Shown here: piece after piece, positions 1 through 63,660 of the stretch
How positions within the stretch are numbered: the stretch's first letter is position 1
How the letters are laid out: the number at the start of each line of letters is the position of its first letter
Assembly: GCA_032164245.1 (NCBI GenBank)
Contig: JAVMKO010000005.1
Span: forward strand, 45,834,193-45,898,192
Reading direction: 5' to 3'
Source of the DNA: Sternotherus odoratus
Lineage: Eukaryota; Chordata; Testudines; Kinosternidae
DNA length: 64,000 bases
Translations under genes and position numbers: made by a program
The notes under the pieces: generated by a model
The model's database searches: none
Seen by the model: only the letters and a program-made list of their open reading frames with translations
What the model was told of the DNA's origin: nothing

Positions 1-763
1 CGGACCAATTTATGGCCACCATCTGGCAGACACCGGCCTCCATTCCACCCACAGCAAAAGGGGTGGAAAGGAGTTACTTTGTTCCAGCCAAGGACTACGA
101 ATATCTGTCTGTCCACCCTCAGCCTTCCTCCTTAGTGGTGGACTCCATTAATAATAAGGAGCGCCACGGGCAAAGGAGGCCAAAAAGCTGGACCTTTTGG
201 GGAGGAAGGTGTACTCGGCGGGTGGGCTACAGCTCAGGGTGGCTAACCAACAGGCCCTCCTGAGCAGACACACATATGACACTCTGAACTCATTGGGCAA
301 GTTCGAGAGTGTTGTTCCCCCTGACGCCAAGCAGGAATTTAAGGCCTTTGTCCAACAGGGCAAGGACGTGGCCAAAATTTCCCTGCAAGCCGCCCTGGAC
401 TCAGTCGACTCCGCAGCCAGAACGGTTGCGTCGGGGGTCACTCTAAGGCGCAGTGCATGGCTGCAATCCTCCAACCTTCCTACAGAGATGCAGCAAACTA
501 TACAGGACCTTCCCTTCGAAGGTGTGGGTCTGTTCTCGGAGACCACGGATACACGCCTGCAGACTTTTAAGGACAAGAGAGTGACCCTCAAAACTCTGGG
601 CATGCATACCCCGGTTACCCAGAGAAGGCCCTTCCAACCCCCAAGGAGGCGGTTTTATCCCCCTCCTCGCCCGCCCCCCGCCCCAAGACTCCTTCCAACG
701 AAGAGGACGTGGCAACCGCCGTCGCTCCTTGTCATGGCAGGCGGGCAAACAACAGCCCCCTAA
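1..763 (+). pseudogene. DIRS gag-like protein, C-terminal part, frameshifted
   Basis: Two plus-strand frames join to one gag-like product: positions 12-170 in frame 3 (contains SYFVPAKDYEYLSVHPQPSS) and 197-763 in frame 2 (KVYSAGGLQLRVANQQA, then RRSAWLQSSNLPTEMQQ). The switch near 170-178 is a small deletion or frameshift. The same blocks occur in the antisense copies at 6220-6707 and 61970-62830, which supports a shared ancestral protein. The tail is rich in Pro and Arg (about 640-730), a plausible nucleic-acid-binding end. The last 55 bases overlap the RT frame. Function is inferred from position; I see no zinc knuckle. Confidence 0.7.
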
Positions 764-2565
764 ACCCTCTCAGGGCCCCAAGCCCAACTTTTGAAGGTGC
801 GCCCAGGGGCAGAGCACCAGTCGGACACCTGGATCCTCCCTTCTGCGATCGTCTGTCCCATTTCCTCCGTACCTGGTCAGACATTACATCGGACCAGTGG
901 GTCCTCTGCACGGTGGAGCTGGGATATTCGCTCCAGCTTTCCACCCGCCCTCCCTCTCACCCTCCTTCCCCGTCCCTCTTCAGGGACCCCTCTCACGAGC
1001 AACTCCTCATACAGGAGGTGAGGTCACTCCTCTCGCTGGGAGCCAATGAGCCCGTCCCAGAGGAGTTCAAGGGGAAAGGATTCTACTCCCGTTACTTCCT
1101 CATCCCCAAGGCGAAAGGGGGCCTACGGCCCATCCTAGACCTACCTGGACTCAACAGCCACATGGTCAAGTTCAAGTTCCGCATGGTCTCCTTGGGCACC
1201 ATCATTCCCTCTCTGGATCCAGGAGACTGGTTCGCTGCCCTCGATATGAAGGACGCTTATTTTCATATTACCATAAAGCCCTCCCACAGACGTTACCTCC
1301 GTTTCCTTGTGGCAGGGGAACATTACCAGTTTGCTGTCCTACCCTTCGGCCTGTCCACTGCACCCAGGGTCTTTACCAAGTGCATGGCGGTAGTAGCAGC
1401 GTTCTTACGCCGCCGCGGGGTACATCTCTACCCGTACCTGGACGACTGGCTGATACGGGGCACCTCCAGGGACCAGGTGCGCACGCATGTGCAGCTTGTC
1501 ATCAGCACATTCGACCACTTGGGTATCCTCCTCAATGAGGGGAAGTCTACCCTGGAACAGACTCATAAAATCGAGTTCATAGGGGCCCTCCTGGACTCTA
1601 CCGTGGCAAGGGCATCCCTCCCACAGCCTCGTTTTCTGGGCATTCAGTCAGCGGTCCGCGACTTGCGATCCTTCCCAATGGCAACGGCTCAGGTGTTCCT
1701 CAGCCTACTGGGCCACATGGCAGCATGCAGGCATGTCACCCAGTATGCCAGATTGTGGCTGCGCCCGCTCCAGTCCTGGCTTGCGTCGGTCTACAGGCCG
1801 AACGTGAACAGCATCAACGCCCTTCTCACCATCCCAAGGGCTATCCTCAACGCTCTGGCCTGGTGGGAAAATCAGGACATCGTCTGCCAGGGCGTTCCCT
1901 TCCTCCCGCCCAGCCCATCCATGTCCCTAGTGACGGACGCCTCGTCTCTGGGTTGGGGAGCCCACCTCGGCGAACTCAGAACGCAGGGCCGCTGGTTGGA
2001 GGCCGATCTCCACCTCCACATCAACGTCAGGGAGCTAAGAGCGGTTCGTCTAGCATGCCAGGCTTTCCAGAGCACGCTAACAGGTCACTGTGTAGCGGTG
2101 CTAACAGACAACACCACAGCCCAGTTTTATATCAACAAACAGGGCGGAGCGCGCTCGAACCCCCTTTGCCAGGAAGCGGTTCTCCTTTGGGAGTTTTGCA
2201 TAGCCCACTCCATTCACCCAGTGGCCTCTTTCCTCCCGGGAGCCCAGAACACGCTAGCGGACCACCTCAGCAGATCGTTCCTGTCGCACGAGTGGTCCCT
2301 CCGGCCAGACGTCATCCGGCCGATCTTCCTACGGTGGGGGTTTCCCCAGATCAACCTCTTTGCCACTCGACACAACAGGAAGTGCCTCCAGTTCTGCTCC
2401 TTCCGCGGCAGCTCCCGGGGCTCCCTAACAGACGCCTTTCTCCTACCCTGGACGGGCCACCTGCTCTACGCGTTCCCTCCGATCCCGCTCCTGCACAAGG
2501 TGATCCTCAAGATCAAACGGGACAAGGTGCATATAATCCTCGTAGCCCCGGCCTGGCCCAGGTAA
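709..2565 (+). CDS. DIRS reverse transcriptase-RNase H polyprotein (618 aa)
   Basis: The frame is uninterrupted for 618 codons. RT blocks in order: YFLIPKAKGGLRPILDLPGLN-like fingers (about residues 128-148), DMKDAYFHI with the first catalytic Asp (about 179), the FAVLPFGLSTAP block (about 209), and the catalytic YLDDWL box (about 243). RNase H follows with SLVTDASSLGWGAHL, a Glu in INVRELRAV, LTDNTTAQFY and LADHLSRS, giving the expected D-E-D-D set. The enzyme would copy the element RNA to DNA. The upstream end overlaps gag and the end overlaps the recombinase in another frame. The start at 709 is the first Met in frame and is not certain to be used. Confidence 0.88.
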   Translation: MATAVAPCHGRRANNSPLNPLRAPSPTFEGAPRGRAPVGHLDPPFCDRLSHFLRTWSDITSDQWVLCTVELGYSLQLSTRPPSHPPSPSLFRDPSHEQLLIQEVRSLLSLGANEPVPEEFKGKGFYSRYFLIPKAKGGLRPILDLPGLNSHMVKFKFRMVSLGTIIPSLDPGDWFAALDMKDAYFHITIKPSHRRYLRFLVAGEHYQFAVLPFGLSTAPRVFTKCMAVVAAFLRRRGVHLYPYLDDWLIRGTSRDQVRTHVQLVISTFDHLGILLNEGKSTLEQTHKIEFIGALLDSTVARASLPQPRFLGIQSAVRDLRSFPMATAQVFLSLLGHMAACRHVTQYARLWLRPLQSWLASVYRPNVNSINALLTIPRAILNALAWWENQDIVCQGVPFLPPSPSMSLVTDASSLGWGAHLGELRTQGRWLEADLHLHINVRELRAVRLACQAFQSTLTGHCVAVLTDNTTAQFYINKQGGARSNPLCQEAVLLWEFCIAHSIHPVASFLPGAQNTLADHLSRSFLSHEWSLRPDVIRPIFLRWGFPQINLFATRHNRKCLQFCSFRGSSRGSLTDAFLLPWTGHLLYAFPPIPLLHKVILKIKRDKVHIILVAPAWPR

Positions 2566-3761
2566 TGCTGGTATGCATCCCTCCTCCAGCTGTCCAAGGC
2601 CCCTCCCATCAGCCTCCCGCTGTGGCCAGACCTGATCTCTCAGGATCACGGTCGCCTACTCCACCTGGACCTGCAGTCCCTGCATCTCACAGCGTGGTTC
2701 CTGCATGGCTAAGGGGCCCGGAGCTCTTGTGTTGTGCCGCGGTGCAGGATGTTCTTCTGGGAAGCAGAAAACCATCAACCAGAAGCACCTATACTGCAAA
2801 GTGGACCCGCTTCTCTGCTTGGTGTATGCAGCGCAACACCATCCCCAGGGAAGCCTCCATCCCAGTCATCCTGGACTACCTGCTGGACCTTAAACAGCAA
2901 GGTCTTTCTACCTCCACTATTAGGGTCCACCTGCCGGCCATCTCGGCGTTTCACCCAGGCTCGGCAGACCACTCGGTCTTCTCAAACCCTACGGTCTATA
3001 GATTCCTTAAGGGGCTGGACAAAGTTTACCCGCAGGTTAAGCATCCCGTCCTGCCTTGGGACCTGAACCTTGTGCTCTCCCGCCTCACCATGTCCCCCTT
3101 TGAGCCCCTCGCCACGTGCTCCTTGCTGTACCTCTCCTGGAAGGTAGCCCTCCTTGTAGCAATCACCTCAGCACGCAGAGTGTCCGAGATCAGAGCGTTA
3201 ACCTCAGAACCGCCTTATACGGTTTTTCATAAGGACAAGATGCAGCTACGCCCCCATCCAGCCTTCCTTCCCAAGGTGGTGTCTCCCTTCCACGTTAACC
3301 AGGACATATTTCTGCCGGTCTTCTACCCTAAGCCCCACACCTCTGGAAGGGAGCAACAATTGCACACGCTCAATGTTAGAAGAGCTCTTGCATTTTATTT
3401 AGACCGCACAAAACCGTTTCGGAAAACAACACAGCTCTTTGTTGTGGTGTCGGATCGGATGAAAGGCCAACCAGTCTCCGCCCAAAGGCTCTCCTCCTGG
3501 ATAACCTCGTGCATTCGCACCTGTTATGAACTGGCGGGCAGGCCCGCCGCGCAGATAACCGCACACTCCACGAGAGCGCAGGCGTCCTCTGCGGCCTTCC
3601 GGGAGAGGGTTCCGATCATGGACATCTGCAGGGCAGCGACCTGGTCCTCCGTCCACACCTTCGCCGCCCACTACGCCATAGTCCAGCAGGCCAGGGACGA
3701 TGCGGCGTTTGGTTCAGCGGTCCTACGCTCAGCGATGGGTCAATCCGACCCCGCCTCCTAG
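1725..3761 (+). CDS. DIRS tyrosine recombinase (open frame 678 aa, conserved part about residues 320-678)
   Basis: The C-terminal half has the tyrosine-recombinase signature: first Arg in SARRVSEIRAL (about 3170-3200), HSTRAQASS giving H-x-x-R (about 3565), and a Tyr in HTFAAHYAIV (about 3660-3680). An N-terminal SAM-like segment begins about 2740 (STRSTYTAKWTRFSAWC). This enzyme would insert the circular DNA copy, so no target duplication is expected. Residues 1-280 overlap the RT/RNase H frame and look like its out-of-frame shadow (Pro/Ser-rich), so the true start is probably nearer 2500-2740. No stop interrupts the catalytic domain. Confidence 0.87.
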   Translation: MQACHPVCQIVAAPAPVLACVGLQAEREQHQRPSHHPKGYPQRSGLVGKSGHRLPGRSLPPAQPIHVPSDGRLVSGLGSPPRRTQNAGPLVGGRSPPPHQRQGAKSGSSSMPGFPEHANRSLCSGANRQHHSPVLYQQTGRSALEPPLPGSGSPLGVLHSPLHSPSGLFPPGSPEHASGPPQQIVPVARVVPPARRHPADLPTVGVSPDQPLCHSTQQEVPPVLLLPRQLPGLPNRRLSPTLDGPPALRVPSDPAPAQGDPQDQTGQGAYNPRSPGLAQVMLVCIPPPAVQGPSHQPPAVARPDLSGSRSPTPPGPAVPASHSVVPAWLRGPELLCCAAVQDVLLGSRKPSTRSTYTAKWTRFSAWCMQRNTIPREASIPVILDYLLDLKQQGLSTSTIRVHLPAISAFHPGSADHSVFSNPTVYRFLKGLDKVYPQVKHPVLPWDLNLVLSRLTMSPFEPLATCSLLYLSWKVALLVAITSARRVSEIRALTSEPPYTVFHKDKMQLRPHPAFLPKVVSPFHVNQDIFLPVFYPKPHTSGREQQLHTLNVRRALAFYLDRTKPFRKTTQLFVVVSDRMKGQPVSAQRLSSWITSCIRTCYELAGRPAAQITAHSTRAQASSAAFRERVPIMDICRAATWSSVHTFAAHYAIVQQARDDAAFGSAVLRSAMGQSDPAS

Positions 3762-5843: not shown

Positions 5844-6218
5844 GGAAAAAAAGTTAGTGGGTGCTTAGAACCCACCAACAGCAAACTCCCTCCTTCCCCC
5901 CACTGTCTCCTGTCTGCTGGTGGCTCCACTGATCAACTCCCCCTCCCTCCCAGCACCTCCTGCCTGCCTGCCTCAATCACCTGTTCAGCAGCATACAGGA
6001 GGTGCTGGAGGAGGAGCGGGGATGGGGCACGCTCAGGGGAGTGGGCAGAACTGGGTGGGAAGAGGTGGAGCGGGGGTGAAGTGGGGGCAGGAAGGCAGGC
6101 TGGAGATGGGGGCTTAGGGGAAGGGATAGATGGGGGTGGGATGAGGGTAGGTGAAGGTGGGGGCTGGGTGGAGCAAGAGGTAGAGCACCCCCTGGGTCCA
6201 GAGAAAGCTGGCACCACC
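5825..6218. mobile_element. Second copy of the same hAT-like MITE, opposite orientation, left end lost
   Basis: GGAGCACCCACGG with GTGGGTGCTTAGAACCC on the left matches the reverse complement of the right end of the 4260-4608 copy. The right end (gctggcaccacctg) matches the other copy's left end. The outer left terminal repeat is missing, and the junction coincides with the place where DIRS copy B lost its RT domain. One deletion probably removed both. Left border uncertain by about 10 bp. Confidence 0.6.
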
Positions 6219-6219
6219 T

Positions 6220-6707
6220 GATTGGCATGCAGAGCCAGATTGGGTGGTTTAGGAGGACAGAGTGGAACAACAGTGTTTGAAGCCCTTGTGTCTGGCCCTT
6301 CTCCTCTAGGAGGAGCCTTGCCACGAAGAGGCCAGAGAATCTTGGCATTGGTGGAGGAGGCAGGAATGACTTCCTAGAGGCCTGTGGCATGTAAAGCCCC
6401 AGGGAATGGAGCATGGCATGGAAGTCTTTCAGGCAGTGCAGCCTGGTATCCGTTTGCTCTGAAAATAGAGCATTCCTCTCAAATGGGAGGACCTGAAGGG
6501 ACTGTTGAACCTCCAGGCAGAGGCCAGAAGACTGCAGCCATGAACTCCACCGTGGCTGCCAAGTCTGCTGCAAACAACGCTGTCTGGAGAGAAGCCCTGG
6601 TAACAGACCTGCCTTCCTCCAGAATAGACCCGAACTCCTGGCCCAGGTCTTGCAGCAGGGAATCTATAAAACTTCCTAGAGATCTTCATGGAGGATTCCT
6701 GGGTCAT
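6220..6707 (-). pseudogene. gag-like remnant of DIRS copy B
   Basis: Minus-strand reading gives WLQSSGLCLEVQQSLQVLPF and LFSEQTDTRLHCLKDF, clear relatives of the copy A gag block at 440-590. The Pro/Arg-rich tail follows toward 6220. The upstream part (6574-6707) is in another frame. Decayed, and probably continues weakly to about 6750. Confidence 0.7.
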
Positions 6708-10686: not shown

Positions 10687-10873
10687 TCACTCTGGAAAGA
10701 CAGTGACCACCTCATAGCCTTCGGGCGGGGTCACTCGCTCCCGGGCATGCGTCTCGCAATAGATGTGATCTTCCACAAAGAAGTGTCCTTTCTGCTTGAG
10801 GTTTGTCCCGCAGTCACTGCACACGTAGCACTCAGGATGGCGCTGCCTGTCACGTAGTTTCACGAACGCCCCC
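10687..10873 (-). CDS. PDLIM1: PDLIM1 last coding exon: second half of the LIM domain and C-terminus
   Basis: PDLIM1 (CLP36/elfin) is a cytoskeletal adaptor that binds alpha-actinin on actin stress fibres and Z-lines. This exon encodes [18 protein letters not shown], then [17 protein letters not shown] and the PDLIM1-type end [16 protein letters not shown], stop TGA at 10687-10689. It supplies the LIM zinc ligands H-x2-C, C-x2-C and C-x2-H; the first C-x2-C is on the previous exon. The acceptor is tttcccacag just right of 10873, and the first base G completes a Gly split across the intron (phase 2). The last residue is Glu, where I recall Lys in human. Confidence 0.95.
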
Positions 10874-15135: not shown

Positions 15136-15253
15136 ACAATGCCGGATCCACACTTATCACAAATGGGCAGCTTCTGGGCATTTCCGATCGACGAGACAAC
15201 TTTTGGCATTGGTGCTTTCACACTTCGAAATCCAGAAGGTTTATTGGGATCCC
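15136..15253 (-). CDS. PDLIM1: PDLIM1 exon 6: linker and first LIM cysteines
   Basis: Minus-strand translation is GDPNKPSGFRSVKAPMPKV then SSIGNAQKLPICDKCGSGIV, which follows the human PDLIM1 order closely. It carries the first C-x2-C of the LIM domain. The acceptor is cctatctccag before GGGATCCC and the donor is GT-gtaagt. The 118-bp length fits phase 1 in and phase 2 out, joining to exon 7. Transposable elements abut it on both sides. The exon is too short to stand out as an open frame. Confidence 0.93.
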
Positions 15254-17727
15254 CTGGAGATAGGAACAGAGCATATTGGATTATGGGCTGCACAAACTGC
15301 AAGAGGAATCTTTAAATCCAGACTGGATGGTTTGGCTAGAGGAAATGCTGTAGTTCAATACAGCTATGGGCCTTGAAGCAGGAATTAATCCAGGGAACTC
15401 CTAGGGCCTATGTTATGGTCACACTGGAGGATCACAAGGTTCCCTCCCGGCTTTGGATTCTAGGGATAGTGAATTGAAATGTGCATAACCACTACAGTAA
15501 GCCTGTTTGTAGAGTTCCTTTTTAAAAAGCAGCAGCTTGAAACCATTCCAATATTACTAAACTTACAGTAATAAAAAAACAATAATAATATAATAAAAAT
15601 AAAATAATAAATGGAGATATACCTATCTCCTATAACTGGAAAGACCTTCAAAGGCCAGAGCACAACCAGCTGTTGCACCATTTGCCTGTAGGGCCCATGG
15701 CTCGACTTGTCAAAGCTGGCTCTCAGCTAGCCTGCTAAGACGGCCCTGCCTACCTCAAGGACACCTGCACTATTGTATCTACATCACTGCAGTAACCCTG
15801 GGTTACTGTACCAAGCAGGGTTTGCACTAATGTAGGTAAACCACAGAGGTGCCAGTCCCGCTTGGCCCCAGTTCAACTCTTCTATGTTAGTGTTTTGCCT
15901 GCTGTAGGTGTACGAATGCAGTTACACAGCTCCAAAGCTCCTTAATCCTGAGTCGCCTTTGAATGGACCACTTCAGAGTCACTGCCGCCCATGCTGATGT
16001 CCCTCCGGTGACATATGCAATTACTGCGGCTCCATCCAGACAATCCAATACGATGGACTGTGCAGGGAAGAGGCACAGCAGCTTGCTCAGGGTAGCTAAC
16101 TCGAAAACATCTTTTTAGTTATTTCAAAAATGCTTCTTGGCTTATTTTACATGAAATGTGATCTCCCCTCCCCCACCTCCCAGTCAGAGCTCTAAGGCTG
16201 AAAAGGGATTTGAGGCTCACCACAGTCCCACAGAGGGGCTGGGTTATTTCACTGGTTGTTATTCTGAGTTCCAAGATAAATAAAAGACCAAAAGATACTG
16301 ATCCAGCTCCTCAGCTGGTGTAAAGCAGTCTAATGACTGAAGACAGTGGTGCCTCTGCTGACTTCCACCAGTCGGGGATTTGGCTCAGAGTCTTTGAGCA
16401 TTTGCTGCCTGCACCTCTGCTTATCACTGTGAACTTTATCAGCATCACCAAGCATCTGAACTGGAATGCCAGAGCCTTTCTGAGCTGTGCTGAAGGGGAA
16501 GCAAGTTAAGCAACAAACATTCTTTCAGGGATGCGTAACTTTACAGGTCCTGCTCAGTATCAAGGATTATCAGCCCAAAATGAAACCAAGCAATAGCCCA
16601 TTTTGGTCCTTTATCAGACAGGCACATTTCAGTGCTAGAGGGTTCCAGCAATGCTGCAAATCCTTGCAAAGTAGAATAAGCACCTTTGCCTCTTATTTTC
16701 TTCAGTGCTATTGAGAACAGGGTAGACTTTCTCCATGGTTGACAAATGAAATGAGAGTTTCACAATATGTGCAGAATGCCCATCAGTAGCTGTAAGTTAC
16801 AAAAATGCAACAAGCAGGAACACTTTTAAAAATATATGATTTTATCTTGGATAAAACTAAAAGAATTTTAAGAATCTAATTTGCTTCTCACTTTGAGGCT
16901 GTTTGCTCTTTGCAAATCACTCAGTTTGGACAATGGAATTTGACAGATCTGTTTCACTTCCAGACTCATACCAGACCCCCATGTTATTATAGATCGCCTA
17001 AAACATACACCTCCTATAGCTACAAACTCAGCCAAAGAAAGGTTTTTAATTGGCCATTCAAACATATCTCTTCCCCTATCTAGACCGGTTTGTTAAAGAA
17101 AGGAGTTAAAAACAAACTTAAGATCTGGGGCTCAACTAAGTACAACACTTTGAGGAGGAGACTGTAGTTGTGCATTGCAAAGTCCAGATGTTGACTCAGT
17201 GGTGCCAAAAAGAGTGGCACGTTCAGCTACTTGTCCTTACCAGATCCAGTACTCTCCTGGATTTCAGATGCAGCTGAATGTTCCCCTTTCCTTGCCAAGA
17301 GGATAGAAACTGCTCGCTTTAGCACTCACATCCTCTCTCACACACTGTCCCATACAATCTTGAATCTAAAAAATTCTTTACCCAGTGAAAAGTGAAGCCT
17401 GATATTTAGAAAATTTGGGGGAGTTTCTAAATTTTATTTTTGAAAGGATTCCTTTTTGATGTTTTAGAATTTGTTTTTAAAATGCTCATGCAGCAAGTGT
17501 TCAAACCCATGGGCACATGAGCATAACAACCACATGGAAAGAGTATCCCTGTACACTGAAGTTAATGGAAAAGTGTCTGTAGGTTTCTTTGGAAATCATC
17601 TACAAAGGCTACTTTCACCAATCAGCAGGTGGGGAAGAGGGTTTGCTTTTAAACCAATTGTAGACTATAGATCAGCTCATAGCAAAGGGAATCTGAAAGC
17701 CACATGCAGAACACAGTAACTGCTTAC
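15254..17727 (-). other. PDLIM1: PDLIM1 intron between exons 5 and 6 (2.47 kb)
   Basis: Donor gtaagca at 17721-17727, acceptor cag at 15254. Contains a CR1 3' end next to the acceptor; the rest (15470-17720) is unassigned, AT-rich, and has no exon I can recognise. Confidence 0.75.
15295..15465 (+). mobile_element. CR1 LINE 3' end fragment
   Basis: Plus-strand sequence AATCTTTAAATCCAGACTGG, then GCTGTAGTTCAATACAGC and CACACTGGAGGATCACAAGG match the 3' end of CR1 as I know it from reptiles and birds. 5' truncated, as usual for CR1. Begins about 40 bases upstream (in gene orientation) of the exon 6 acceptor. Confidence 0.65.
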
Positions 17728-17876
17728 CTTCAGATTCTAAAATTTCTTGTAGCACCAGGAATGAAGCAGATTGCCTGGGTGGTTCCTTTGGGTCTTCAGT
17801 TTCCTGGAGCATCTTGTAAACCTCAGATTCCTTGTCTATGACAAGGTTACTGGAGGGCTGGCTGTGTTGCTCCAAA
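17728..17876 (-). CDS. PDLIM1: PDLIM1 exon 5: linker after the ZM motif
   Basis: Encodes LEQHSQPSSNLVIDKESEV, YKMLQETEDPKEPPRQSASF and LVLQEILESE, matching the region between the ZM motif and LIM domain of PDLIM1. Acceptor ttctccccag, donor G|gtaagc. The 149-bp exon starts with the third base of a codon left by exon 4 (phase 2 in) and leaves one base (phase 1 out), consistent with its neighbours. Its acceptor phase accepts either exon 4 or the alternative 4b. Confidence 0.95.
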
Positions 17877-20580: not shown

Positions 20581-21109
20581 CAGTAAACCCTCGATTTAAC
20601 GGACCTCGATTTAACGGACTTCGTATGCAACGGACAAAATTTCTGAGCAAGTCTGATGCATTCCTGATCCATTTCTGGCGGGCTGGCTGCCGGCTCCCGG
20701 CTGCCGCCCGGGTCACGGCAGCGGGCGGGCTGGCTGCCGGCTCCCGGCTGCCGCCCGGGTCCAGGCAGCGGGCGGGCTGGCTGCCGGCTCCCGGCTGCCG
20801 CCCGGGTCCAAGCAGCGGGCGGGCTGGCTTCCGGCTCCCGGCTGCCGCCCGGGTCCAGGCAGCGGTCGGGCTGGCTGCCGGCTCCCGGCTGCCGCCCGGG
20901 TCCAAGCAGCAGGCGGGATGCGGGGCTGCCGGCTCCCGGCTGCCGCCCGGGTCCAGGCAGCGGGCGGGATGCGGAGCTGTCGCCCCGACCCTGTGGCGGG
21001 CGGGCTGCTGCTCCGACAGCTTTTTTAAAAATTATTATTAAATAACGGACTTTTTGATTTAACGGACACCCCCTCGCCCGAATTAGTCCGTTAAATGGAG
21101 GTTTTACTG
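20581..21109. mobile_element. Tigger-like (TcMar) non-autonomous element with TA target duplication
   Basis: Left end CAGTAAACCCTCGATTTAAC and right end inverted CAGTAAAACCTCCATTTAAC are near-perfect terminal inverted repeats, each bordered by TA (20579-20580, 21110-21111), as in the pogo/Tigger group. The left end also repeats the subterminal box CTCGATTTAACGGAC. The interior is mostly a GC-rich minisatellite; there is no transposase. Confidence 0.85.
20677..20962. repeat. 47-bp minisatellite, six units, inside the Tigger-like element
   Basis: Five units of 47 bp (20677-20911) and a 51-bp sixth unit, each containing CTGGCTGCCGGCTCCCGGCT and GCCGCCCGGGTCC. Units differ at a few bases (e.g. 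GGCAGCG versus AAGCAGC). It yields long mirror open frames on both strands, which are not genes. Very GC-rich against an AT-rich intron. Confidence 0.9.
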
Positions 21110-21680: not shown

Positions 21681-22271
21681 GTAGGTGTCACGTGCCTGCG
21701 AAGTGACCACTGGGGAGGAGGAGCCTGTTCTTGCCGGAAATTGGTCTAACTCAGGCTACATAGCCTGATCCTTCAGTACACACATACAGCCACCGGTGAT
21801 ATGTGAAATGAAAGCTCACAGGATACTTACCAGCTGAACAGATGGCAGTGCGTTCCAGTCACTACCGAATTAGGGATTCGGGAACAAAATGTTACCAGTC
21901 TGGTGCTTTAAATAGAAACCCCACTCACCCTAAATCAAGTCAGTACAAGACCATTTTTCACGTAATCAAATCTTGTACATTTCACCCTTCTCTTTGTGGG
22001 TGTGTAAAGCAGCAGAGGAGAGTGGCAGACTGATTTGGTACATTTCAGTGCTTTGCATTGTGCACAGCAAAGAAATGCAATGCAGAGAAAGCCTCTGTGA
22101 CGAGAACATCATGCACTAAGTTTTCATTCAGAAAGGTGACACACAAAACCTTGGATTCTTGGTGACAGGTCGACACTGTGAGCAACGGACAAATAAAAAG
22201 TCACTTGTGAAGATGAAGCCGTGGATGCACATGTGCGTTGAGTAAGCCATGCACACAGCAGGCAAGGTTAC

Positions 22272-22549
22272 CTGGGAAAATCAGGGCTAACAGAAGAGAT
22301 CTGCCCTTGTAAAGTATCCAAGATGTTTCTCTGGGAATACAGCTGCAAGGGGGAATTAAATTGCACGTGCATCACTTTGAGTCCTGGCACCTCCACTTCC
22401 ACGGGGCTGTTGGGGCAGATCTGAGCGGCTTGCTTTAGCTGTTCGGGCCCCACTCTCACTTGGCTCGGGATGGAGGAGGTGCTGTGCCTCCTTTGCAATG
22501 GAGGCAAGGTGTGCGGCTGGAGAGGATTATAGACCGTTGCAAAGGGTGC
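22272..22549 (-). CDS. PDLIM1: Candidate alternative PDLIM1 exon (4b) with a second ZM motif, PDLIM3 skeletal type
   Basis: The minus strand is open for 278 bp between acceptor ccttctgggttccag (just right of 22549) and donor CCCAG|gtaacc (22266-22271). It starts in phase 0 and ends with two spare bases, exactly like exon 4 (197 bp), so it can replace exon 4 without shifting the frame (exons 4 and 4b together would shift it). The product includes QLKQAAQICPNSPVEVEVPG and a ZM motif, KVMHVQFNSPLQLYSQRN followed by ILDTLQGQIS. ZM motifs bind the alpha-actinin rod. The closest relative I know is the skeletal-muscle alternative segment of PDLIM3/ALP. Exon use is inferred: no transcript evidence is available. 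A gene-conversion or relic exon is the alternative. Confidence 0.8.
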
Positions 22550-24714
22550 CTGGAACCCAGAAGGCGATAAATGGCTAGAGGCAGGAAAGGGTTACAGGGA
22601 GGTTGGGGTTTGTTTTTTTTTAAGGTTGCAGAGTTGAGAGGAAAACACAGAAGGGGGAAGAAAGAAAGGAAGGAAGGGAGAAGTTAATGGAGGAGTAAAC
22701 CAAATTCCCAAGCAATTCTGAAATGAGTACTTCAAATCAGGCGTCCCTTTCACTAGAAGGATCCACCATATACAGATCAGCTGTATGGTAAAGCTTCTGG
22801 CTAATGCTGACCTTCCGGCCGAGCACAAAGGGTATGTCTACACTGAATCAGGAGACGTGACTGAGCGCAGGGAGGCATGCCTGAGTTAGTTTTAATCTAG
22901 TTAGATCGGGGATGCCTACATGAACTGCAGTCACACCTCCAGCCTGCAATGCAGACCACCCAAAGGGTACAGTGGAGCAGGAGGAATTAGATACCAAGTC
23001 CTTCACCTCACCCACCCCCCGTCACCATAAGGCAGTTCTTTTATAAAGTTCTGAAAACCAAATAGTGGTTGCAGTTTCTCTGGCCAGGCTCTGCATCGCT
23101 TACATCTGTGTAAATCCAGAGGAAAAGCGCTGGGCTGGACAATTTCAATGATGTTCCTCTGGAAGAACACCGGCACACACACCTGGCCTCTTGAGTTCAG
23201 AGGAAGATGCTCTGGATGGGTGCTGGAGGCTGTGCATTATGGAGCACCTGATGTTAGATGAACATGGGTTCAGCCCCACTTCAAAGTCTGAACCATTGAA
23301 AAACAAGCCACAGAGCGTAAGTCACTATTGTCTGGGGTTTGGACAAGTGAAGACCCCATTAAAGCAGGTAGCTGTTAATTCAATTCTGAAGGGACACTTG
23401 TTTGGTAAACAAAATCTTGCTAGGCTTTAGTCGCTATTTACAATCACTGCCACCTGCCCTCTTTCCAGGGAGGGAGGGGGGGAGTGACAGCCCCAGGAAG
23501 GAAGCAGAAAGCAAAAACAACGGTCCTTGGGGGCAGGGAAGCCAAATGTTATCAGAGCAGCTAGGAGATAGCATAAGCACTTATGGAACCATAGTTTCAG
23601 ACTGGTATTAAAAAGTCTCAATTTCTTCAACTTCTCCCTTTTGACTGCACCGGTTAGTCAGGGATTTAGAACTAGCACCTAAGGCACAGGCATAACTCTG
23701 CACTCGTGAAAGCAGGCCAGTATCCTCAGACTGTTATGGCCTTTGTTGTGTGTTTGTGCTGCACCTTGCACCCTGATGTCCTGGTCCATGACTAGTGCAA
23801 TACAAATAACACCAAAGGGCTCCGACTTCTTATCATCATTATTTCAATTTTACAGATGTGGAAACTGGGACTTTGGGAGGTTAAGTGAGTGACTTGCTCA
23901 AGGTCACAGAGGAAGCCACTGTCAGAGCCAAGAACAGAGCCCAGGAGGTTCCCGGCTCCCATCCCTGTGCTCCCATCATTAGACATACTTTGTTTTGTTT
24001 CTAGCACTTCAGACTAGAAGCAGGCTAGTTTTTTGGTGAAGTGCGTAACTTGGCAAGGGTCAGATGCAACCACAAACCCACCCCTGGGGCTGTTCAGCTG
24101 GGACAGCTGTGGAGGTAGGGTAGACTTTCAATCTCGATTGTATCACAGGATGAGCAGAAGAGAAACAACTGCCCAGAGCTCTCTGCAATTCTTTAAGATC
24201 CACAGAAAAGGGCAGTTTAATAAAAACTCCAAGCCTGGACATTGTCCCTGTAAGAGTTCAAAGCTCTCTCTGAAAAGGGACTGCTCTCTCCTCCGCACCA
24301 CACTGTACCCTTCCAGCACTGCTTGCAAAGCCAGAAGGCAAGACTTCAATTGTACAAAGTGCTGATAATAAAGCATTGGGCACCTGTTTCGGTCAGAGGG
24401 TGATTTTAAGGGCTGGTATGTCATGCTGAACGCACGCTGAAACGGCGCTGGTCTCTGGCAAACAAAAACACACAATTGTTAATTTCACCTTTGCACCTTG
24501 CAGAACATTCCCTGCCCCCACAAGCCATGACCCCCCTGGACCGCATCCAGGCTCACACACCTGTTAGCCGCACTCCTTCCACAAGCCTGAAAGAGAATTG
24601 TCCCGTGTCAAAGAATGAATCCGCTCGCAATGAGTGTATGACAAAGCTCGCTCCATGATAAACAGACACCCCACCAAGGAGGGGGCAGGGAGAGAGAAGT
24701 GGGGAACTACTTAC
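22550..24714 (-). other. PDLIM1: PDLIM1 intron between exons 4 and 4b (2.2 kb)
   Basis: Donor gtaagtag at 24707-24714, acceptor beside 22549. Contains a purine-rich GAAA/GGAA stretch near 22650, a MITE-like start at 22832 (GGGTATGTCTACACTG) and a MIR-like SINE at 23820-23985. No further exon seen. Confidence 0.7.
23820..23985. mobile_element. MIR-like SINE fragment
   Basis: TTTTACAGATGTGGAAACTG, GACTTGCTCAAGGTCACAGA and AACAGAGCCCAGGAGG give the CORE-SINE order. Confidence 0.5.
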
Positions 24715-24911
24715 GGCTTGCTGGGCTCCTGGGCATCACCAGATGACTTAGACTCCACAGCACTGTTGAAGGTCTGGATGTTTTCTGAGGAGTACAGGCC
24801 TGCGGGGCTGTTGTACTGGGCAGTGATCACTTTGGGGGCAGTGCTGGAAGCGGTGGCAGCAGTGAATGGCATAGCACTCCGGTTGTGCGCGCTTCCTATG
24901 TGCCTTATTTC
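24715..24911 (-). CDS. PDLIM1: PDLIM1 exon 4: canonical ZM motif
   Basis: Encodes EIRHIGSAHNRSAMPFTA, then VITAQYNSPAGLYSSENIQ and TFNSAVESKSSGDAQEPSKP, the ZM region of PDLIM1, which contacts alpha-actinin. Acceptor cccttgcatgcag, donor CC|gtaagt. 197 bp, phase 0 in, phase 2 out, in agreement with exons 3 and 5. Resembles the smooth-muscle type exon of the paralog PDLIM3. Confidence 0.95.
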
Positions 24912-26494
24912 CTGCATGCAAGGGAGCAAAGGCAACGTCAGAAGTGTCCGACATGCAGGAGGGACGTGCCAGGGCAGCTTGATGAACATGCAGCAGGAGG
25001 GCAGCTCTCCAGAACCAGAGAAGCACTCAGCCCAAATCCACCCAGCTGCGACCCTATAATGGGACAGAGCTCTCAGCAGACTGAGGATCTTCGCACTATG
25101 AGCATCCCTAGACCCAGCTGCTCACTCTGCAGGACAGTGAAAGAGTCTATAAAGCAGACATTAGGCTTCAGTGACACAGATCACTGGAAAGATGGGGCTG
25201 GGGCACACCTAGCAGAGCTATTGTCTTGAGCTGTCCGCAGACTTCACTGGATCCACTGCATTCGGTCTCAAGATTTTTTATTTTTATTTTTTTATTAATG
25301 GACTGGTTCGATATCGGAGCACAAGTTGACAAAACCGTCCTCTCACAGAGGCCCCCTGTAAGCCAGCCCTGGGAGCAGGATTGTCCAGATTGATCATGTG
25401 GCTGGGCTTCCATTCAGATCTCATGTAGGCTGACATTTTCAAAACGTGACTAGTGGATTGGTCAATGCGGGGGGGGGGGGGGGGGAGGAAGAGAACCTCA
25501 CATACCTTCAAGAGGCCCGATTTTCAGAGGATGGGTGCTCAGCACTATCCAAAAGTCAGGCCGGATTAAGGTATCTCAAGTTGAGCACTGAACAATTGAG
25601 ACATTCAAAAAATGACTCACCACTTCTGAAAATATCCCCTCATATTCTCACAGACATCAAGAGGAGAAGTGGTAAGGGTCAAATTCTTGCATGTGGTTCC
25701 CGAGTAACAAATAGGTTAGTTATCAAGACAGTGGACCTGCTACAAGGCTGCACCCCCCGCCCTCATTTAATTCAGTCAATCTTCCAATCTGAGCCGCCAA
25801 TCAATTTGATCAAAAACTCCAAACCAAAATTCCTTAGTATTTATTTGATCAAAATAAAGAATGGAAGGTTTTGGGGTTTTTTAAATATTCCACTGTCATC
25901 TTGCCTTTCAATATCACTTTTCATCCAAAGCACTTAATGTTGGGTAAGTCTGAACCTCATCCTCAGGCCCAGCAATGAGGAGCAGAGAGGTAAGTGACAG
26001 GACAAGACCACAGAGCTAACTGGTGCCAGGCCTGCCCATTCCCAGGACCTCTGGACTAGCCATTAGATTATGCTGCCTTTTGCCAACATAAAGAGGGAAG
26101 GTGTAATGCTGCAAAGCTGCCTTTGGCAGCAAAAATTCTGTTGTTTTGCCGACAAAATAAAACCACCTCAATGAAAGGCATAGAGCATTTTGTGGCAAAT
26201 TATCAGTGTAGACACTATTTGTTTTGTTGACATCCCACAATTCCCCGTTATGACCTCTGGTTTCATCTTTCATCTCTGTTGCCCTGCAGTCATGCACCCC
26301 TCCTCTTTCAAAACTCTGGGAAGTGTTTGACAGTATCTGAGAACAAAGAGCAAATCATGAACATGGAATGTTCCTGTTTTGCCCTAGGAATACTATACAA
26401 TGGCAAGCAGAGGGGGGAGGGGGAGTGAGTGAGTGTGTGTGTGGGGGGGAGAGTGCTTGAGGGGAGATATGTAAACTCAGAGCTAATTGAGGCG

Positions 26495-29097: not shown

Positions 29098-30059
29098 ATA
29101 ATAATTTACTTAGTGAGAGCCTGAGTCTGATTTGTAGACTTTATGTTAAAGAGAGCTACACAGTTAGCTCAAATGAGCACGAGATTTAGGTTGTGTCAGA
29201 TTCTGCAAGAAGAGAAACATTTACATTTTTAGCAAAAATTATGAAAAGTGAAGTTTTCTGTTTTTGTTTTTAATAGGTTTGTGATTTGCTCGGTTTTTCA
29301 ATATAGCTATTCATTTCCTTGCACTGTGGATAGCCCAATTACTACAGCACTGAAGACAAATGAACTGTAAACAAAAAGTGGAACTATCAAGTCTATTTTT
29401 CTTGTCTGAGCAGAGAGAGGGGCAAAAAGAAAACGGCTAAGAGTTAACTGCAGTAACACACAACCATGATGCAAGACTAGAGCTTTAAAGTTGGGGCAGA
29501 GAAGGCAGATATATACACGAAGAGTGGCAGGTCAGGACTTCATGCAGAAGGAGTCAAGGATGAGGCTGGGAGCTGCAGGGCAGTTGTTGACTACAATGTG
29601 AGTGTGTCTGGGAGAGTGGGGGTTAGTTTGACACAGTGGCTGGACAGGAGACACCAAACAGTACACAGGTGGAAAGGATGGAGGGGATGGAGAAATATGT
29701 GAGAGGCAACAGCAAAGAGGTGGTGGGTAGTTGATGAGATCAACCATGGAAAATATACAGAAAGAGGAGAGTGGTGAAACTAAGTACAGCAGGAGTAGCC
29801 CTAGTAATTTTGCCGACCAGGATGGGAAACATTTTTGGTGCTGTCCCCCCTCTGAGATTGAAATGGAAGGGGGGAAATGCAGAGCAGCACAGCAATCCTG
29901 CACCCCCTGCAAGCTGGTGCATAGGGCAACGTCCCTGCCCACCTGCCCCTAGAACTAACCCTGGAGGAACTGTAAGGGATGCCAAGAGGAAGGGAGCACA
30001 TCAAAGAGGTGTTAGAGAGGGACTAACTGGTAGGGACAGAGCTGGAGAGAGAAGAAACA

Positions 30060-38499: not shown

Positions 38500-39011
38500 T
38501 AGAGGTGGGCAAACTATACCCTGCAGACCATTTTAAACCGGCCTGCAAGCTGCACCATGTGGCTTGTCCCCACTCCGGCCGGGGTGCAGGGTCGGGGCCC
38601 TACCAGCGACTCCCAGAAGCCATGGCATGGCCACACTCCAGCTTCTATACACTCCAATGGGAGCTGCAGAGGCGGTGCCTGCAGATGGGGCAGCATGCAG
38701 AGCTGCCTGGCCGGGCCTCTGCATAGGAGCTGGAGAAGGGACATTCCACTGCTTCCAGGAGCTGCTTAAGGCAAGCACTGCTCAGAGCCTGCACCCCCTG
38801 AGCCTCTCCACATGCAACCCTTCCTGCACACATGCACCAGCCCTGATCCCCCCCAAATTCTCAGTCTCAGGCCTACATCCCAAACTCCTCATCCCCAGCC
38901 CCATCCCAGAGCCTGCACCCCAAACCCCAATTTTGTAAGCATTCATGGCCCGCCATATAATTTCTGTTCCCCAATGTGGCCTTTGGGCCTAAAAGTTTGC
39001 CCTCCCCCCTG
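38500..39011. mobile_element. Non-autonomous hAT, CAGGGGTGGGC family, copy 3
   Basis: Ends TAGAGGTGGGCAAACT and inverted CAGGGGGGAGGGCAAACTTT; flanks ccacagtg (38492-38499) and ccacagcc (39012-39019) match at 6 of 8. Shares AATGGGAGCTGCAGAGGC and GCAGCATGCAGAGC with the copies at 13891 and 40906. Confidence 0.75.
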
Positions 39012-41990: not shown

Positions 41991-42075
41991 CTGGGGTTGA
42001 GATGCCAGATTCATCTTGTAGGGATTGGGCTTTCCCTCCTCTGTCACCAGAGGGGACCAGACTTTGGATTCTGTT
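41991..42075 (-). CDS. PDLIM1: PDLIM1 exon 3: segment after the PDZ domain
   Basis: Minus strand: one base completing an Arg codon, then [20 protein letters not shown] and MNLASQPQ, nearly identical in pattern to human PDLIM1 after the PDZ domain. Acceptor tactgtattgcag, donor CAG|gtaagt. 85 bp: phase 2 in, phase 0 out, matching exon 4. The product connects the PDZ domain to the ZM motif. Confidence 0.93.
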
Positions 42076-47711: not shown

Positions 47712-49530
47712 ACTTGGAGTTGCAGCTAGCAAGGGATGTTAAGGGTAACAAGAAGGGTTTCTTTAGGTATGTTAGCAACAAGAAGAAAGTCAAGTAAAGT
47801 GTGGGCCCCTTACTGAATGAGGGAGGCAATCTAGTGACAGAGGATGTGGAAAAAGCAAATGTACTCAAAGCTTTTTTTGCCTATCTTCACGCACAAGTTC
47901 AGCTCCCAGACTACTGCACTAGGCAGCAGAGCATGGGGAGGAGGTGACCAGCCCTCTGTAGAAAAAGAAGTGGTTCAGGACTATTTAGAAAAGCTGGAGG
48001 AGCACAAGTCCATGGGGCTGGATGTGCTGCATCCCAGGGTGCTAAAGAAGTTGGCTGATGTAATTGCAGAGCCATTGGCCATTATCTTTGAAAACTCATG
48101 GCGATCAGGGGAGGTCCCGGATGACTGGAAAAAGGCTAATGTAGTACCCATCTTTAAAAAAGGGAAGAAGGAGGATCCAGCAAACTACAGGCCAGTCAGC
48201 CTCACCTCAGTGCCTGGAAAAATCATGGAGCAGGTCCTCAAGGAATCAATCCTGAAGCACTTAGAGGAGAGGAAAGTGATCAGGAACAGTCAGCATGGAT
48301 TCACCAAGGGCAAATCATGCCTGACTAACCTAATTGCCTTCTACGATGAGATAACTGGCTCTGTGGATGAGGGGAAAGCAGTGGATGTGTTGTTCCTTGA
48401 CGTTAGCAAAGCTTTTGATACGGTCTCCCACAATATTCTTACCAGCAAGTTAAAGAAGTATGGGCTGGATGAATGGACCATAAGGTGGATAGAAAGCTGG
48501 CTGGATCGTCGGGCTCAACGGGTAGTGATCAATGGCTCCATGTCTAGTTGGCAGCCGGTATCGAGCGGAGTGCCCCAAGGGTCAGTGCTCGGGCCAATTT
48601 TATTCAATATCTTTATCAATGATCTGGAGGATGGCGTGGACTGCACCCTCAGCAAGTTTGCAGATGACACTAAACTGGGAGGAGTGGTAGATACACTGGA
48701 GGGTAGGGATAGGATACAGAGGGACCTAGACAAATTAGAGGACTGGGCCAAAATAAATTTGGTGAGGTTCAACAAGGAGAAGTGCAGAGTCCTGCACTTA
48801 GGACGGAAGAAACCCATGCACTGCTACAGACTAGGGACCGAATGGCTAGGCAGCAGTTCTGCAGAAAAGGACCTAGGGGTTACAATGGATAAGAAGCTGG
48901 ATATCAGTCAACAGTGTGCCCTTGTTGCCAAGAAGGCTAATGACATTTTGGGCTGTATAAGTAGGGGCATTACCAGCAGATCGAGGGACGTGATTGTTCC
49001 CCTCTATTCAAGATTGGTGAGGCCTCATCTGGAGTACTGTGTGCAGTTCTGGGGCCCACACTACAAGAAGGATGTGGAAAAATTGGAAAGAGTCCAGAGA
49101 AGGGCCACAAAAATGATTAGGGGTCTGGAGCGCATGACTTATGAGAGGCTGTGAGAACTGGGATTGTTTAGTCTGCAGAAGAGAAGAATGAGGGGAGATT
49201 TGATAGCTGCTTTCAACTACCTGAAAGGGGGTTCTAAAGAGGATGGATCTAGACTCTTCTCAGTGGTAGCAGATGATCGAACAAGGAGTAATGGTCTCAA
49301 GTTGCAGTCGGGAAGGTTTAGATTGGATATTAGGAAAACCTTTTTCACTAGGAGGGTGGTGAAGCACTGGAATGGGTTACCTAGGGAGGTGATAGAATCA
49401 CCTTCCTTAGAGGTTTTTTAAGTTAGGCTTAACAGCGTCCTGGCTGGGATGATTTAGTTGGGGACTGGTCCTGCTTTGAGCAGGGGGTTGGACTAGATGA
49501 CCGCCAGAGGTCCCTTACACCCTGACATTA
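47712..49530 (+). mobile_element. CR1 LINE, 5' truncated, about 1.8 kb
   Basis: Starts with GTTGCAGCTAGCAAGGGATG and runs through the reverse transcriptase to the CR1 3' end (GATGATTTAGTTGGGGACTG, GCAGGGGGTTGGACTAGATG). Inserted in the Tigger-like element. A 24-base antisense CR1 3' end (49531-49554, gaatcatagaatattaggg) follows directly. Confidence 0.88.
47750..49421 (+). pseudogene. CR1 ORF2 reverse transcriptase, three disabling changes
   Basis: The frame from 47844 gives 436 residues with the non-LTR RT blocks: [54 protein letters not shown] and the catalytic FADDTKL (48660s). The tail [18 protein letters not shown] and [18 protein letters not shown] continues to 49421 in the same frame after one TGA (49152-49154). 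Upstream coding ([16 protein letters not shown], 47810-47870) is in another frame, with a shift near 47886 and a TAA at 47795-47797. The endonuclease half is absent (5' truncation). RT would prime on nicked target DNA; this copy cannot move by itself. Confidence 0.88.
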
Positions 49531-51110: not shown

Positions 51111-52243
51111 AGAGAGAAATCAGTGCTGGAGTAGAACTTGCCGCCTCTGGCCACCAATGAACTTCAAACCACATAGAAGTACCAAAAGGACTGGCTCTAA
51201 TCACCACTCCAGCACACAATGTAGCATGAGCAAGACTGAATGGCTACAAAGGGATGTTTCAGCTCTGACCCTTCTGCTAGAACAGAGGAACACAGAGAAA
51301 ACAAGTCTTGCTATCAACATTGTCCCTGTTTGTAGGGCTGTCAAGCCCACACTTTTCACCAGTGCTGGGGATGGAGTTTTATAAAGGCACCTAAGAGAAT
51401 TAGACACCAACTCTCATTGAAGGACAATAGGATTTGGACACTAAGCATCTTTTACAGATCCCAGACTAAATTCTCCGAGATCTGTGATTCAGAATTTGGT
51501 TTACATAGAACTTCCTTTAAACTCAGCCTCGCCCAAAACAAAGGTCAATGTCAGGGTGCAGGAGGAAGAGAGGGACTGGGCAAGTTTCCTTCTGGGGCTG
51601 ACACAAACCTAAGCAGCAAACATGGGCATGTGGGAAACGCTCCCGTCACATGTTTGCAGCTCTGATTTTCATGTAGTGCAATTCACCACAACAGGGCGAG
51701 CATCACAGGCACAGAGGAAAAGTCACCACTCTGCTGGGGCTCCCACCCCTACCCCTATGCAGAGACCAAGACACTAAATCAGAAAAGAATTCTCTCAGCT
51801 CCTGAAATATAGAATTAGGAAGGAATTAGAGGAGGAATTGGTAGGAAGGAGAAGAGGGAAAGCACATATAAGTTAAGACAGGAGTGTGGAGATATAGTTA
51901 ATAAACACATTTCACAAAGCTTGCCCTGAACATGATGTTCTGTAAACATAAAAGTCTAGATTCTCTTTTGCTATCAGTATTCTGCATACAGAAATGGGCC
52001 TGAATGGTGGGGAAAGGTCAGAGTTGGACAATGTAGTTCTAATTCTGTAATCAGGGATTATATAAATAAATATTGTGAGGGGGGCAGATTTACATTCTCA
52101 CTCCAAAACCTGGGCTGAAAGTAACCAAGTAAAAATCTCAAAGAAATAACCAAAGCGCTAACACAAGGAAGTTCCTGGCACAGTACAAGACTTAATACAG
52201 TTGTCCTGTCCCTTTCTGGGACAGAAGATACCTTCCCTCTCAA

Positions 52244-61969: not shown

Positions 61970-63660
61970 TTAGAAAACAGAGTAGGGTCCATGGAAAGGG
62001 AGGTCCTGAATGGACTGCTGGACCTCTGCGGAAAGGCTGGAGGATTGCAGCCACAACACCCATCTCGTTGAAATGGCAGATACCATCGTTCTGGCTGTGG
62101 AGTCGGCTGTGTCAGAGGCTGCCTGGAGGGAAGCCCTTGCCACGGTATGGCCAAAAACTCCTGCAGCAATGAGTCTGCAAACTTGGCCATGGATTGCCAC
62201 ACATTAAAGTCATACCTCCCGAGCAGAATTTGCTACATGCAATTGGAGGCTGGCATTTCAATAAACTTCTGCCAAAAAGATTGAGCCTCTTTGCTTCCTT
62301 ATTTTTGGGGGGGTCAAACTGGTTTGACACTGCATGTCCCACTCGTTGGCCGTGGATACAACCAAGGAACTCGATGAAGGGAGGGGGAATAAAAGCACTC
62401 AAAGCCCCTAGTAGGGACATAGTATTTTCTCTCCTCACAGGAGAGGATGGGGTCTGCCATAAGGCCTTCACCAGCTTCATGACACCCTTGTGCATGGGCA
62501 AGGTGACCTTCAATGGGGTCACTGCCGCAAGATGTCAAAGCTCCTCCGCTTCCAGCCCAAGGTTAGTGGCCACACACTTAAGTAGTTCTTGGTGCATCTT
62601 AAAATCATCCCGTGGCACTACGTGCGATGCTCCCACCACTGCTTCGTTGGGTGAGGAAAAGGAGGCGGCAGGAAGTGGGGGAGGGACTAACTCTGCTTCC
62701 CCAGCTGGGGCAGCCTCATCTGAATCTGAAGTGGGCTCCTGAGCACCAGGAAGCGACCCCTTGTCAGAGTCAGGAGGTGGGCGGGAGACTGTTGCTGACC
62801 ATCTTTCTGATGCGCCCGACACGGAGGGCTATACCTGGAACTCAGCGACGGGGAGAACCCCCATGGACTCCAGAACTGCCAAGGTGCAGGCCACTGGCCC
62901 TGGGGTCATGTCCCTGCTGGTAGCCCAGAGGGAACTCCTGCTGGCATCACAAAGTGCATCTGGCCCTTGGGCACTGTGACTTCCTGGACCTCAGAGTTCG
63001 AGGAGGAAGGGTCTTCCCTTGGTGACCAGGTCAGCGTCGCTGCTGCTTCCATTTTCCCACCATATCAGGTGGACCGGTGTTTCATGCTTGGGGAGTGGCA
63101 TCGCGGCTCTGTAGCATGGTGCCAGATGCCCGGCGACAATGCTTGGGGGATCGACGATGGTATTCCGGCAATCGACCCCTCGAGCTCAGGGATCAGTGCC
63201 AGGGCTCCAGTGACAGGGAGTGGTACTGCGGGAGCGGCGATGGCGCTCGAGGGAGCGGCGATGGCGCTGTTTATCCAGGGACCAGTGGAATGCCTCAGGA
63301 GACTAGCACCAAGTGTCCAGTGATCGGTGCCATGAGTCCGGTGCTGAGAGTCTACAAATAGGCACCAGGGACTCAAGGAGGTCTCTAAGGACTGGTTGCG
63401 CCAGCAGTCCCTGGAGCTGCGCTAAGTCGAGCATCACAGTGCGGGGAGTGAAGCCGTGACGAAGGGGATCGCTGCAGGGTCCCTGGTGCAGTCTTGCCTC
63501 TAGAGAGGACCATGTCATCCCAAGGCATCAGCAGCCCCGGCAATGATAGAATATCTTTTGCCACCTGAAAGGCCTCCAGAATAGATAGCATCGTCAGGTG
63601 CCAGGTATCCCTACCACTCGAAGGGACGGGGGTTGGTCCCAGAATGGACTCGAGAGACTA
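61970..63660 (-). pseudogene. DIRS gag-like remnant (copy C)
   Basis: Minus-strand frames follow the gag of copy A: FIPPPFIEFLGCIHGQRVGH and SNQFDPPKNKEAKRLNLFGR (62290-62420), SDTADSTARTMVSAIST and LQSSSLSAEVQQSIQDLPFH (61985-62140). Upstream pieces with PRDDFKMHQELLKCVATNLG (62540-62620) and a Pro/Ser/acidic region lead to about 63660. Frameshifts separate all blocks, and no RT or recombinase follows on the left, so the copy is truncated after gag. Confidence 0.7.

Follow-up and report, generated by a model that had tools for sequence, protein, structure and literature searches.

The window, that is, the whole stretch of 64,000 nt of Sternotherus odoratus DNA that was analysed, carries exons 3 to 7 of PDLIM1 on its minus strand, as located by tblastn (Table 1). 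With a provisional human PDLIM1 sequence as reference, exon 3 is 76% identical, exon 4 70%, exon 5 77%, exon 6 78% and the LIM exon 90%; the matches of exons 3 and 6 extend beyond the splice sites. Against human PDLIM3, likewise provisional, the values are 66% for the LIM exon, 40% for exon 5, 58% for exon 6 and 53% for exon 3, and all four of these exons are closer to PDLIM1 than to PDLIM3. The letters of the human PDLIM1, PDLIM3 and LDB3 references are provisional in every comparison reported below. The PDZ-coding exons 1 and 2 gave no credible tblastn match within the window to these human sequences and probably lie outside it. Between exons 4 and 5, on the same strand, lies a further open block bounded by splice sites, referred to here as exon 4b.

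Several other elements share the window. A DIRS-like retroelement on the plus strand (571-3761) encodes a reverse transcriptase (RVT_1, E 1.5e-19), and a frame that overlaps it gives weak, sub-cut-off matches of the tyrosine-recombinase type (phage integrase, E 0.0006 and 0.003). Two open frames on the minus strand (5977-6663 and 62112-62534) look by eye like the leader of this element at the window start and have no Pfam match. A LINE-type reverse transcriptase frame of 438 codons occupies 47838-49154 on the plus strand (RVT_1, E 7.4e-36) and is CR1-like by eye. A GC-rich minisatellite (20677-20968; unit of 47 nt, 6.1 copies) lies in intron 4b-5. A scan of the window against Rfam at gathering scores gave no matches.

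Table 1. Features of the PDLIM1 locus in the window; distances with a sign are counted from the neighbouring splice site.
Feature	Position	Strand	Remarks
PDLIM1 exon 3	41991..42075	-	tblastn with human PDLIM1
Three UGCAUG upstream of exon 4	24915..24992 (starts 24992, 24957, 24920)	-	at -81, -46 and -9
Canonical PDLIM1 exon 4	24715..24911	-	197 nt, phase 0/2, other ZM type than 4b
AG exclusion zone upstream of 22574	22577..22717	-	141 nt without AG; 143 nt AG to AG
Second candidate branch point TTTAC	A at 22696 (-122)	-	yUnAy motif
Candidate distant branch point TTAAC	A at 22684 (-110)	-	yUnAy motif
Uninterrupted pyrimidine tract, PTB-type	22649..22683	-	35 nt
Looser proximal branch candidate GTAAC	A at -18	-	motif scan
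Acceptor CTAG for the 22574 start	22575-22578	-	closes the AG-free zone
Exon 4b, preferred reading	22272..22574	-	303 nt, phase 2 in and 2 out; PDLIM3 exon-6-type ZM exon
Exon 4b with alternative acceptor (initial annotation)	22272..22549	-	278 nt, phase 0/2, open
PVEVEVPGLKVMHVQFNSPLQL, counterpart of the alpha-actinin-rod-binding peptide ALP 175-196	22340..22405	-	peptide alignment
ZM motif in 4b	22286..22378	-	Pfam DUF4749 match, residues 58-88 of the 92-aa block
UGCAUG (RBFOX motif)	22248..22253	-	+19 from the 4b donor
UGCAUG (RBFOX motif)	22110..22115	-	+157 from the 4b donor
PDLIM1 exon 5	17728..17876	-	rest of DUF4749
PDLIM1 exon 6	15136..15253	-	tblastn with human PDLIM1
PDLIM1 last exon (exon 7), LIM domain	10687..10873	-	stop codon ends at 10687

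The initial annotation had described exon 4b as a 278-nt open minus-strand block running from 22549 to 22272 between an AG and a GT, entered in phase 0, left in phase 2 and comprising 92 codons, and it was found as claimed. Alone, 4b matches Pfam DUF4749 (PF15936) with 35.7 bits, above the gathering cut-off of 28.7, and canonical exon 4 matches the same family with 38.2 bits. Joined to exon 5, 4b gives the complete domain (93/93 positions, 102.4 bits), the score for exon 4 joined to exon 5 being 103.3 bits. Residues 147-218 of human PDLIM3 align to 22489-22274 with 47% identity over 72 aa (tblastn, E 1.5e-17), and the exon-6 part of PDLIM3, used alone as query, scores 77.0 bits against 4b. As controls for this query, the best of 100 shuffled windows reached 25.8 bits and the reversed query 21.2 bits. 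A chance open reading frame as the source of 4b is rejected by these two controls. The alignment with PDLIM3 extends past the ZM motif by about 37 residues on the N-terminal side, approximately half of the match, and the homology is therefore one of exons, beyond a short shared motif.

Typing with the provisional sequences assigns 4b to PDLIM3 exons 5/6 (z=33), followed by LDB3 exon 4 (z=20) and PDLIM3 exon 4 (z=12); for exon 4 of the window the best partner is its human PDLIM1 counterpart (z=33), followed by exon 4 of PDLIM3 (z=20), so that the ZM typing of the two exons is reciprocal. On sequence grounds 4b is a ZM exon of the type of PDLIM3 exon 6 and LDB3 exon 4, and canonical exon 4 is of the other type. 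A resemblance of the ZM motif to the skeletal-type segment of PDLIM3 had been part of the initial annotation, and it stands far above chance in the Pfam match, the typing and the shuffle controls, the PDLIM3 letters being provisional ones. The order that it had given for the two exons, the exon-4 type first and the other type after it, agrees with the published exon numbering of PDLIM3 (PMC3983107). The ALP peptide 175-196 is reported to bind the alpha-actinin rod with an apparent Kd of 3.0 uM, and the internal region of ALP is reported to be largely unfolded (PMC2670261). In 4b its counterpart PVEVEVPGLKVMHVQFNSPLQL is identical at 13 of the 22 positions and identical or conservative at 21/22. 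The 92-aa block gave no matches to PDB sequences, and third-position GC was set aside as weak evidence. Exon 4b is very probably a coding exon that is used in some tissue.

The 5' edge of 4b may be placed at either of two acceptors. The frame is open upstream as far as 22591, and a second acceptor (ctttcctgcctctag/C) lies 25 nt upstream of 22549, from which the exon would start at 22574 and measure 303 nt with phase 2-2. The 143-nt gap from AG to AG before 22574 ranks first among the 4606 such gaps on the minus strand. Four gaps on that strand are at least 100 nt long; the other three end near 51803, 44926 and 29641, with no known exon adjoining. The pyrimidine run of 35 nt within the zone exceeds all others on both strands of the window, of which the longest measure 29 nt (plus) and 27 nt (minus), and it is directly preceded by the yUnAy motifs at -122 and -110. 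As seen here, exons with distant branch points are described as having an AG-free zone of at least 100 nt whose 5' end holds a branch motif and a pyrimidine tract; such exons tend to be alternative and use the first downstream AG (PMC1431707). The exceptions given in the same source concern an AG less than 12-15 nt from the branch point, or AGs less than 12 nt apart (PMC1431707). With 25 nt between the two AGs of 4b, and the predicted branch 110 nt away, neither exception fits, nor does either fit with the -18 candidate as the branch point. Counting from the predicted distant branch point, the AG that would serve a start at 22549 comes second. A rough home-made weight matrix scores the two AGs 3.85 and 3.61, which does not separate them, and this matrix, made from approximate frequencies, was set aside as an arbiter between the acceptors. 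Elsewhere on the minus strand, the stretches 51803-51921 and 29641-29781 are AG-free and pyrimidine-rich (118 and 140 nt AG to AG) with an acceptor-like end, and represent either dispersed elements or unrecognised exons.

The organization of human PDLIM3 bears on the same choice. In the PDLIM3 protein, which we take to be 364 aa long, the actinin-binding peptide falls at 175, agreeing with its published number. Human PDLIM3 exon 4 is listed as 188 nt and exon 6 (185508562-185508299) as 264 nt, a length divisible by 3 (PMC13196872). From this exon length, the 364-aa protein and a phase-2 end, PDLIM3 exon 6 would be phase 2-2 with GCSTPSGID as its first residues. The PDLIM3 isoforms described with exon 5, either with or without exon 6 (PMC3983107), also need a symmetric exon 6 if both are in frame. 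Read from 22574, 4b begins with HLSPSGFQ, which aligns with the presumed GCSTPSGID start, and its 303 nt and phase 2-2 are like those of the PDLIM3 exon; the start at 22549 would give 278 nt and phase 0/2. Because the AG-exclusion zone, first-AG scanning and the deduced phase of PDLIM3 exon 6 all favour it, 22574 is probably the start of 4b. The 5' edge first proposed, at 22549, probably gives way to the upstream acceptor, which is the better argued of two sites that the matrix leaves alike.

Six combinations of exons were translated, all over PDLIM1 exons 3-7. The canonical exons give 244 codons, and replacement of exon 4 by 4b from 22549 leaves the frame open for 271 codons, confirming the 27 additional codons reported for 4b. 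Exon 4 followed by the 278-nt form of 4b runs into a stop after 124 codons, and exon 4 followed by the 303-nt form is open over 345 codons. A direct junction of exon 3 with the 303-nt form meets a stop after 43 codons, and omission of both exons meets one after 37. The earlier statement that joint use breaks the frame thus holds with the start at 22549 and fails with that at 22574. As the latter start puts 4b in frame after exon 4, the argument from phase for mutual exclusivity would then be reversed: exon 4 and 4b together remain in frame and the junction of exon 3 with 4b does not. Exclusivity thus does not follow from phase, even though the RBFOX motifs considered below are compatible with a swap. 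The intron between exon 4 and 4b is 2140 nt long, and 2018 and 2030 nt separate the donor of exon 4 from the two candidate branch points, so that these are not too near that donor for joint splicing. An intron of this length therefore offers no steric reason for mutual exclusion.

A homologue of PDLIM3 exon 5 was sought in three introns (phase 0-2, 30-159 nt, loose splice-score floors), in a scan that would miss a shorter or more diverged exon, and none stood out among the candidates, of which there were five in intron 4-4b, one in intron 4b-5 and eight in intron 3, with top local scores of 17, 19 and 24. A three-frame comparison of PDLIM3 exon 5 with intron 4-4b scored 24, 25 and 24, under the shuffle mean of 27 (300 shuffles; 95th percentile 34).

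RBFOX motifs lie beside exons 4 and 4b, and a PTB-type tract precedes 4b. The hexamer UGCAUG, which was noticed after the fact on reading and was not predicted beforehand, has 35 copies on the minus strand of the window and 20 on the plus strand. The three copies upstream of exon 4 form the tightest triple on the minus strand, with 72 nt from the first start to the last; the next on that strand spans 137 nt (38699-38836, deep in intron 3), and the tightest on the plus strand spans 612 nt. Three of 12 exon flanks of 250 nt each contain the motif, namely those upstream of exon 4 (three copies), downstream of 4b (two) and downstream of exon 5 (two). The copies near exon 5, an exon taken as constitutive, are at 17708 and 17492 on the minus strand, +20 and +236 downstream of it. 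According to published accounts, RBFOX sites upstream of an exon lead to skipping and those downstream to inclusion, UGCAUG is enriched 10-80 nt downstream of muscle exons, PTB declines, and exons that skeletal muscle includes are preceded by UCUCU/PTB sites; at the alpha-actinin muscle exon, RBFOX1 and a CELF protein act against PTB (PMC5840707). Long AG-free zones are described as characteristic of PTB-repressed exons, and weak splice sites as a property of the smooth-muscle exons of differentiated cells (PMC5062968). LDB3 is a listed RBFOX1 target (PMC5793171).

The AG-free zone of 4b contains CUUCU twice, against 0.23 expected from the strand average, and is free of UCUCU, the PTB motif named in PMC5840707. 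With the home-made matrix, the donor of 4b (CAG/GTAACC) scores below two strong donors of PDLIM1 and above its two weak ones. Given this layout, 4b reads as an exon silenced by PTB and activated by RBFOX, with the binding of both predicted. The RBFOX motifs at exon 4 and at 4b suggest regulation in muscle, and they also keep alive the model in which one exon is swapped for the other.

We assign a probability of about 0.58 to the reading in which 4b would be a functional, alternatively spliced, muscle-type exon of PDLIM1 that starts at 22574 and has exon 4 joined to 4b in its main product. As to its expression, the binding of regulators, the choice of isoform and its function, we infer the following course. 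In cells other than muscle, 4b would be silenced by PTB bound to the long distal pyrimidine tract beside the distant branch point. In differentiated muscle or neurons PTB would fall, and RBFOX on the downstream UGCAUG would switch 4b on. The phase-compatible product, exon 4 to 4b to exon 5, would be a PDLIM1 protein with two different ZM motifs in tandem, of which the second would carry the ALP-like alpha-actinin-rod-binding peptide and might thereby provide stronger or redirected anchoring at the Z-disc. The full proposal, that is, a two-ZM isoform of PDLIM1 turned on by RBFOX and released from PTB, with an ALP-type anchor that is added rather than swapped, and kept in some vertebrates and lost in others, is put forward tentatively, at somewhat below even odds.

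The main difficulty for joint use of exon 4 and 4b comes from the three UGCAUG upstream of exon 4. Should RBFOX repress exon 4, the start at 22574 would yield frameshifted mRNA only, and because skipping of exon 4 then gives no full product these motifs are the strongest point for a swap and against an added exon. Such an outcome argues for either the 22549 start or unproductive splicing. In the former case, 4b from 22549 would replace exon 4 in muscle, with RBFOX repressing exon 4 from upstream and activating 4b from downstream. The frame of 271 codons over exons 3-7 allows this, the three motifs lie at most 81 nt upstream of exon 4, one of them 9 nt before it, where RBFOX is reported to promote skipping (PMC5840707), and published PDLIM3 isoforms contain either exon 4 by itself or exons 5/6 in its absence (PMC3983107). 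However, replacement of this kind would have to bypass the first AG beyond the predicted branch point in favour of one 25 nt further on, where the exceptions described in PMC1431707 do not fit; its start and phase are unlike those deduced for PDLIM3 exon 6, and the 2140-nt intron supplies no steric ground for exclusion. We consider it unlikely. In the latter case, a tissue rich in RBFOX would skip exon 4 and join exon 3 to 4b at 22574, with a premature stop and decay, so that PDLIM1 would be lowered where PDLIM3 and ZASP take over, and the preserved frame would reflect another use of 4b. The stop 43 codons into this product and the layout of the RBFOX motifs agree with such a role, but a pure poison exon would not keep a frame of 100 codons and 47% identity to PDLIM3, and the idea is improbable. 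About as little chance is given to a relic, active in an ancestor and now unspliced in this species, with decay yet to come; its splice-site scores are middling, but the frame is free of stops and frameshifts over 303 nt, the donor is intact and no AG-to-AG gap on the strand is longer, all of which speaks against it. Insertion into PDLIM1 of a recent copy of PDLIM3 exon 6 from the same species is rejected as scarcely credible, its divergence being too large: a recent copy should presumably match human PDLIM3 as closely as the orthologue does, and the 47% found is typical of the gene pair.

Exon 4b also has a bearing on the history of the ALP family. Its identity to human PDLIM3 falls within the range of 40-66% seen for the other exons of the gene pair, and a divergence in line with that of the pair is not that of a recent copy. 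Two ZM motifs are reported for ALP and ZASP and one for Elfin/PDLIM1 (PMC1781342). The simplest account would be that both types of ZM exon predate the split of the ALP paralogues and that PDLIM1 lost one of them in lineages such as human. An origin of the second ZM exon before that split had already been proposed for this locus, and it gains support from the divergence and from the one-versus-two count of ZM motifs in the literature consulted (PMC1781342). Among the matches listed for PDLIM1/CLP36, for PDLIM3 exons and RBFOX, and for AG zones, at the level of titles and abstract beginnings and with most subscription papers outside the scope, none described PDLIM1 with a second ZM exon; 4b may already be predicted in database gene models. 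If 4b is in use, both types of ZM exon would already have been present in the ancestral gene of the ALP family, and the architecture of human PDLIM1 would be a later loss. A single muscle splicing switch, known from PDLIM3 and LDB3, would then be traceable to before the paralogue split. This switch is reported to be disturbed in myotonic dystrophy (PMC3983107), and the splicing of PDLIM3 exon 6 in failing hearts (PMC13196872). The expected product would also be corrected, as ZM motifs that are added, not exchanged, would give PDLIM1 a different alpha-actinin valency.

Several known systems resemble 4b in part. Exon 6 of PDLIM3/ALP shares with it 47% identity over 72 aa that extend beyond the ZM motif, a position after an exon of the exon-4 type, and the peptide that binds the alpha-actinin rod; with the start at 22574, though not at 22549, 4b would also share its length divisible by 3 and its deduced phase of 2-2. 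It differs in that 4b sits in PDLIM1, has 100 full codons against 87, with the extra ones near the 5' end, and has no exon-5 partner found in the scanned introns. In LDB3/ZASP, exon 4, the cardiac ZM exon, is the second-best match to 4b (z=20, provisional sequence); unlike PDLIM1, LDB3 belongs to the Enigma subfamily and has three LIM domains. In LDB3 the ZM type to which 4b belongs stands first in the exon order. PDLIM3 isoforms are described as joining exon 6 with exon 5, not with exon 4, and PDLIM3a/c, which are without exon 4, as occurring mainly in heart and skeletal muscle (PMC3983107); in another account the predominant heart isoform includes exon 4 (PMC13196872). These two sources conflict over exon 4 in heart, which bears on whether PDLIM3 exon 4 is joined to exon 6. 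The alpha-actinin SM exon and alpha-tropomyosin exon 3 were established by experiment as PTB-regulated exons with distant branch points, whereas the branch point of 4b and the binding of regulators are predicted, and the intron before 4b is too long to enforce steric exclusion. For the alpha-actinin SM exon, activation by RBFOX against PTB has been published (PMC5840707), and both exons resemble 4b in their long AG-free zone, at the far end of which lie the branch motif and the pyrimidine tract (PMC1431707).
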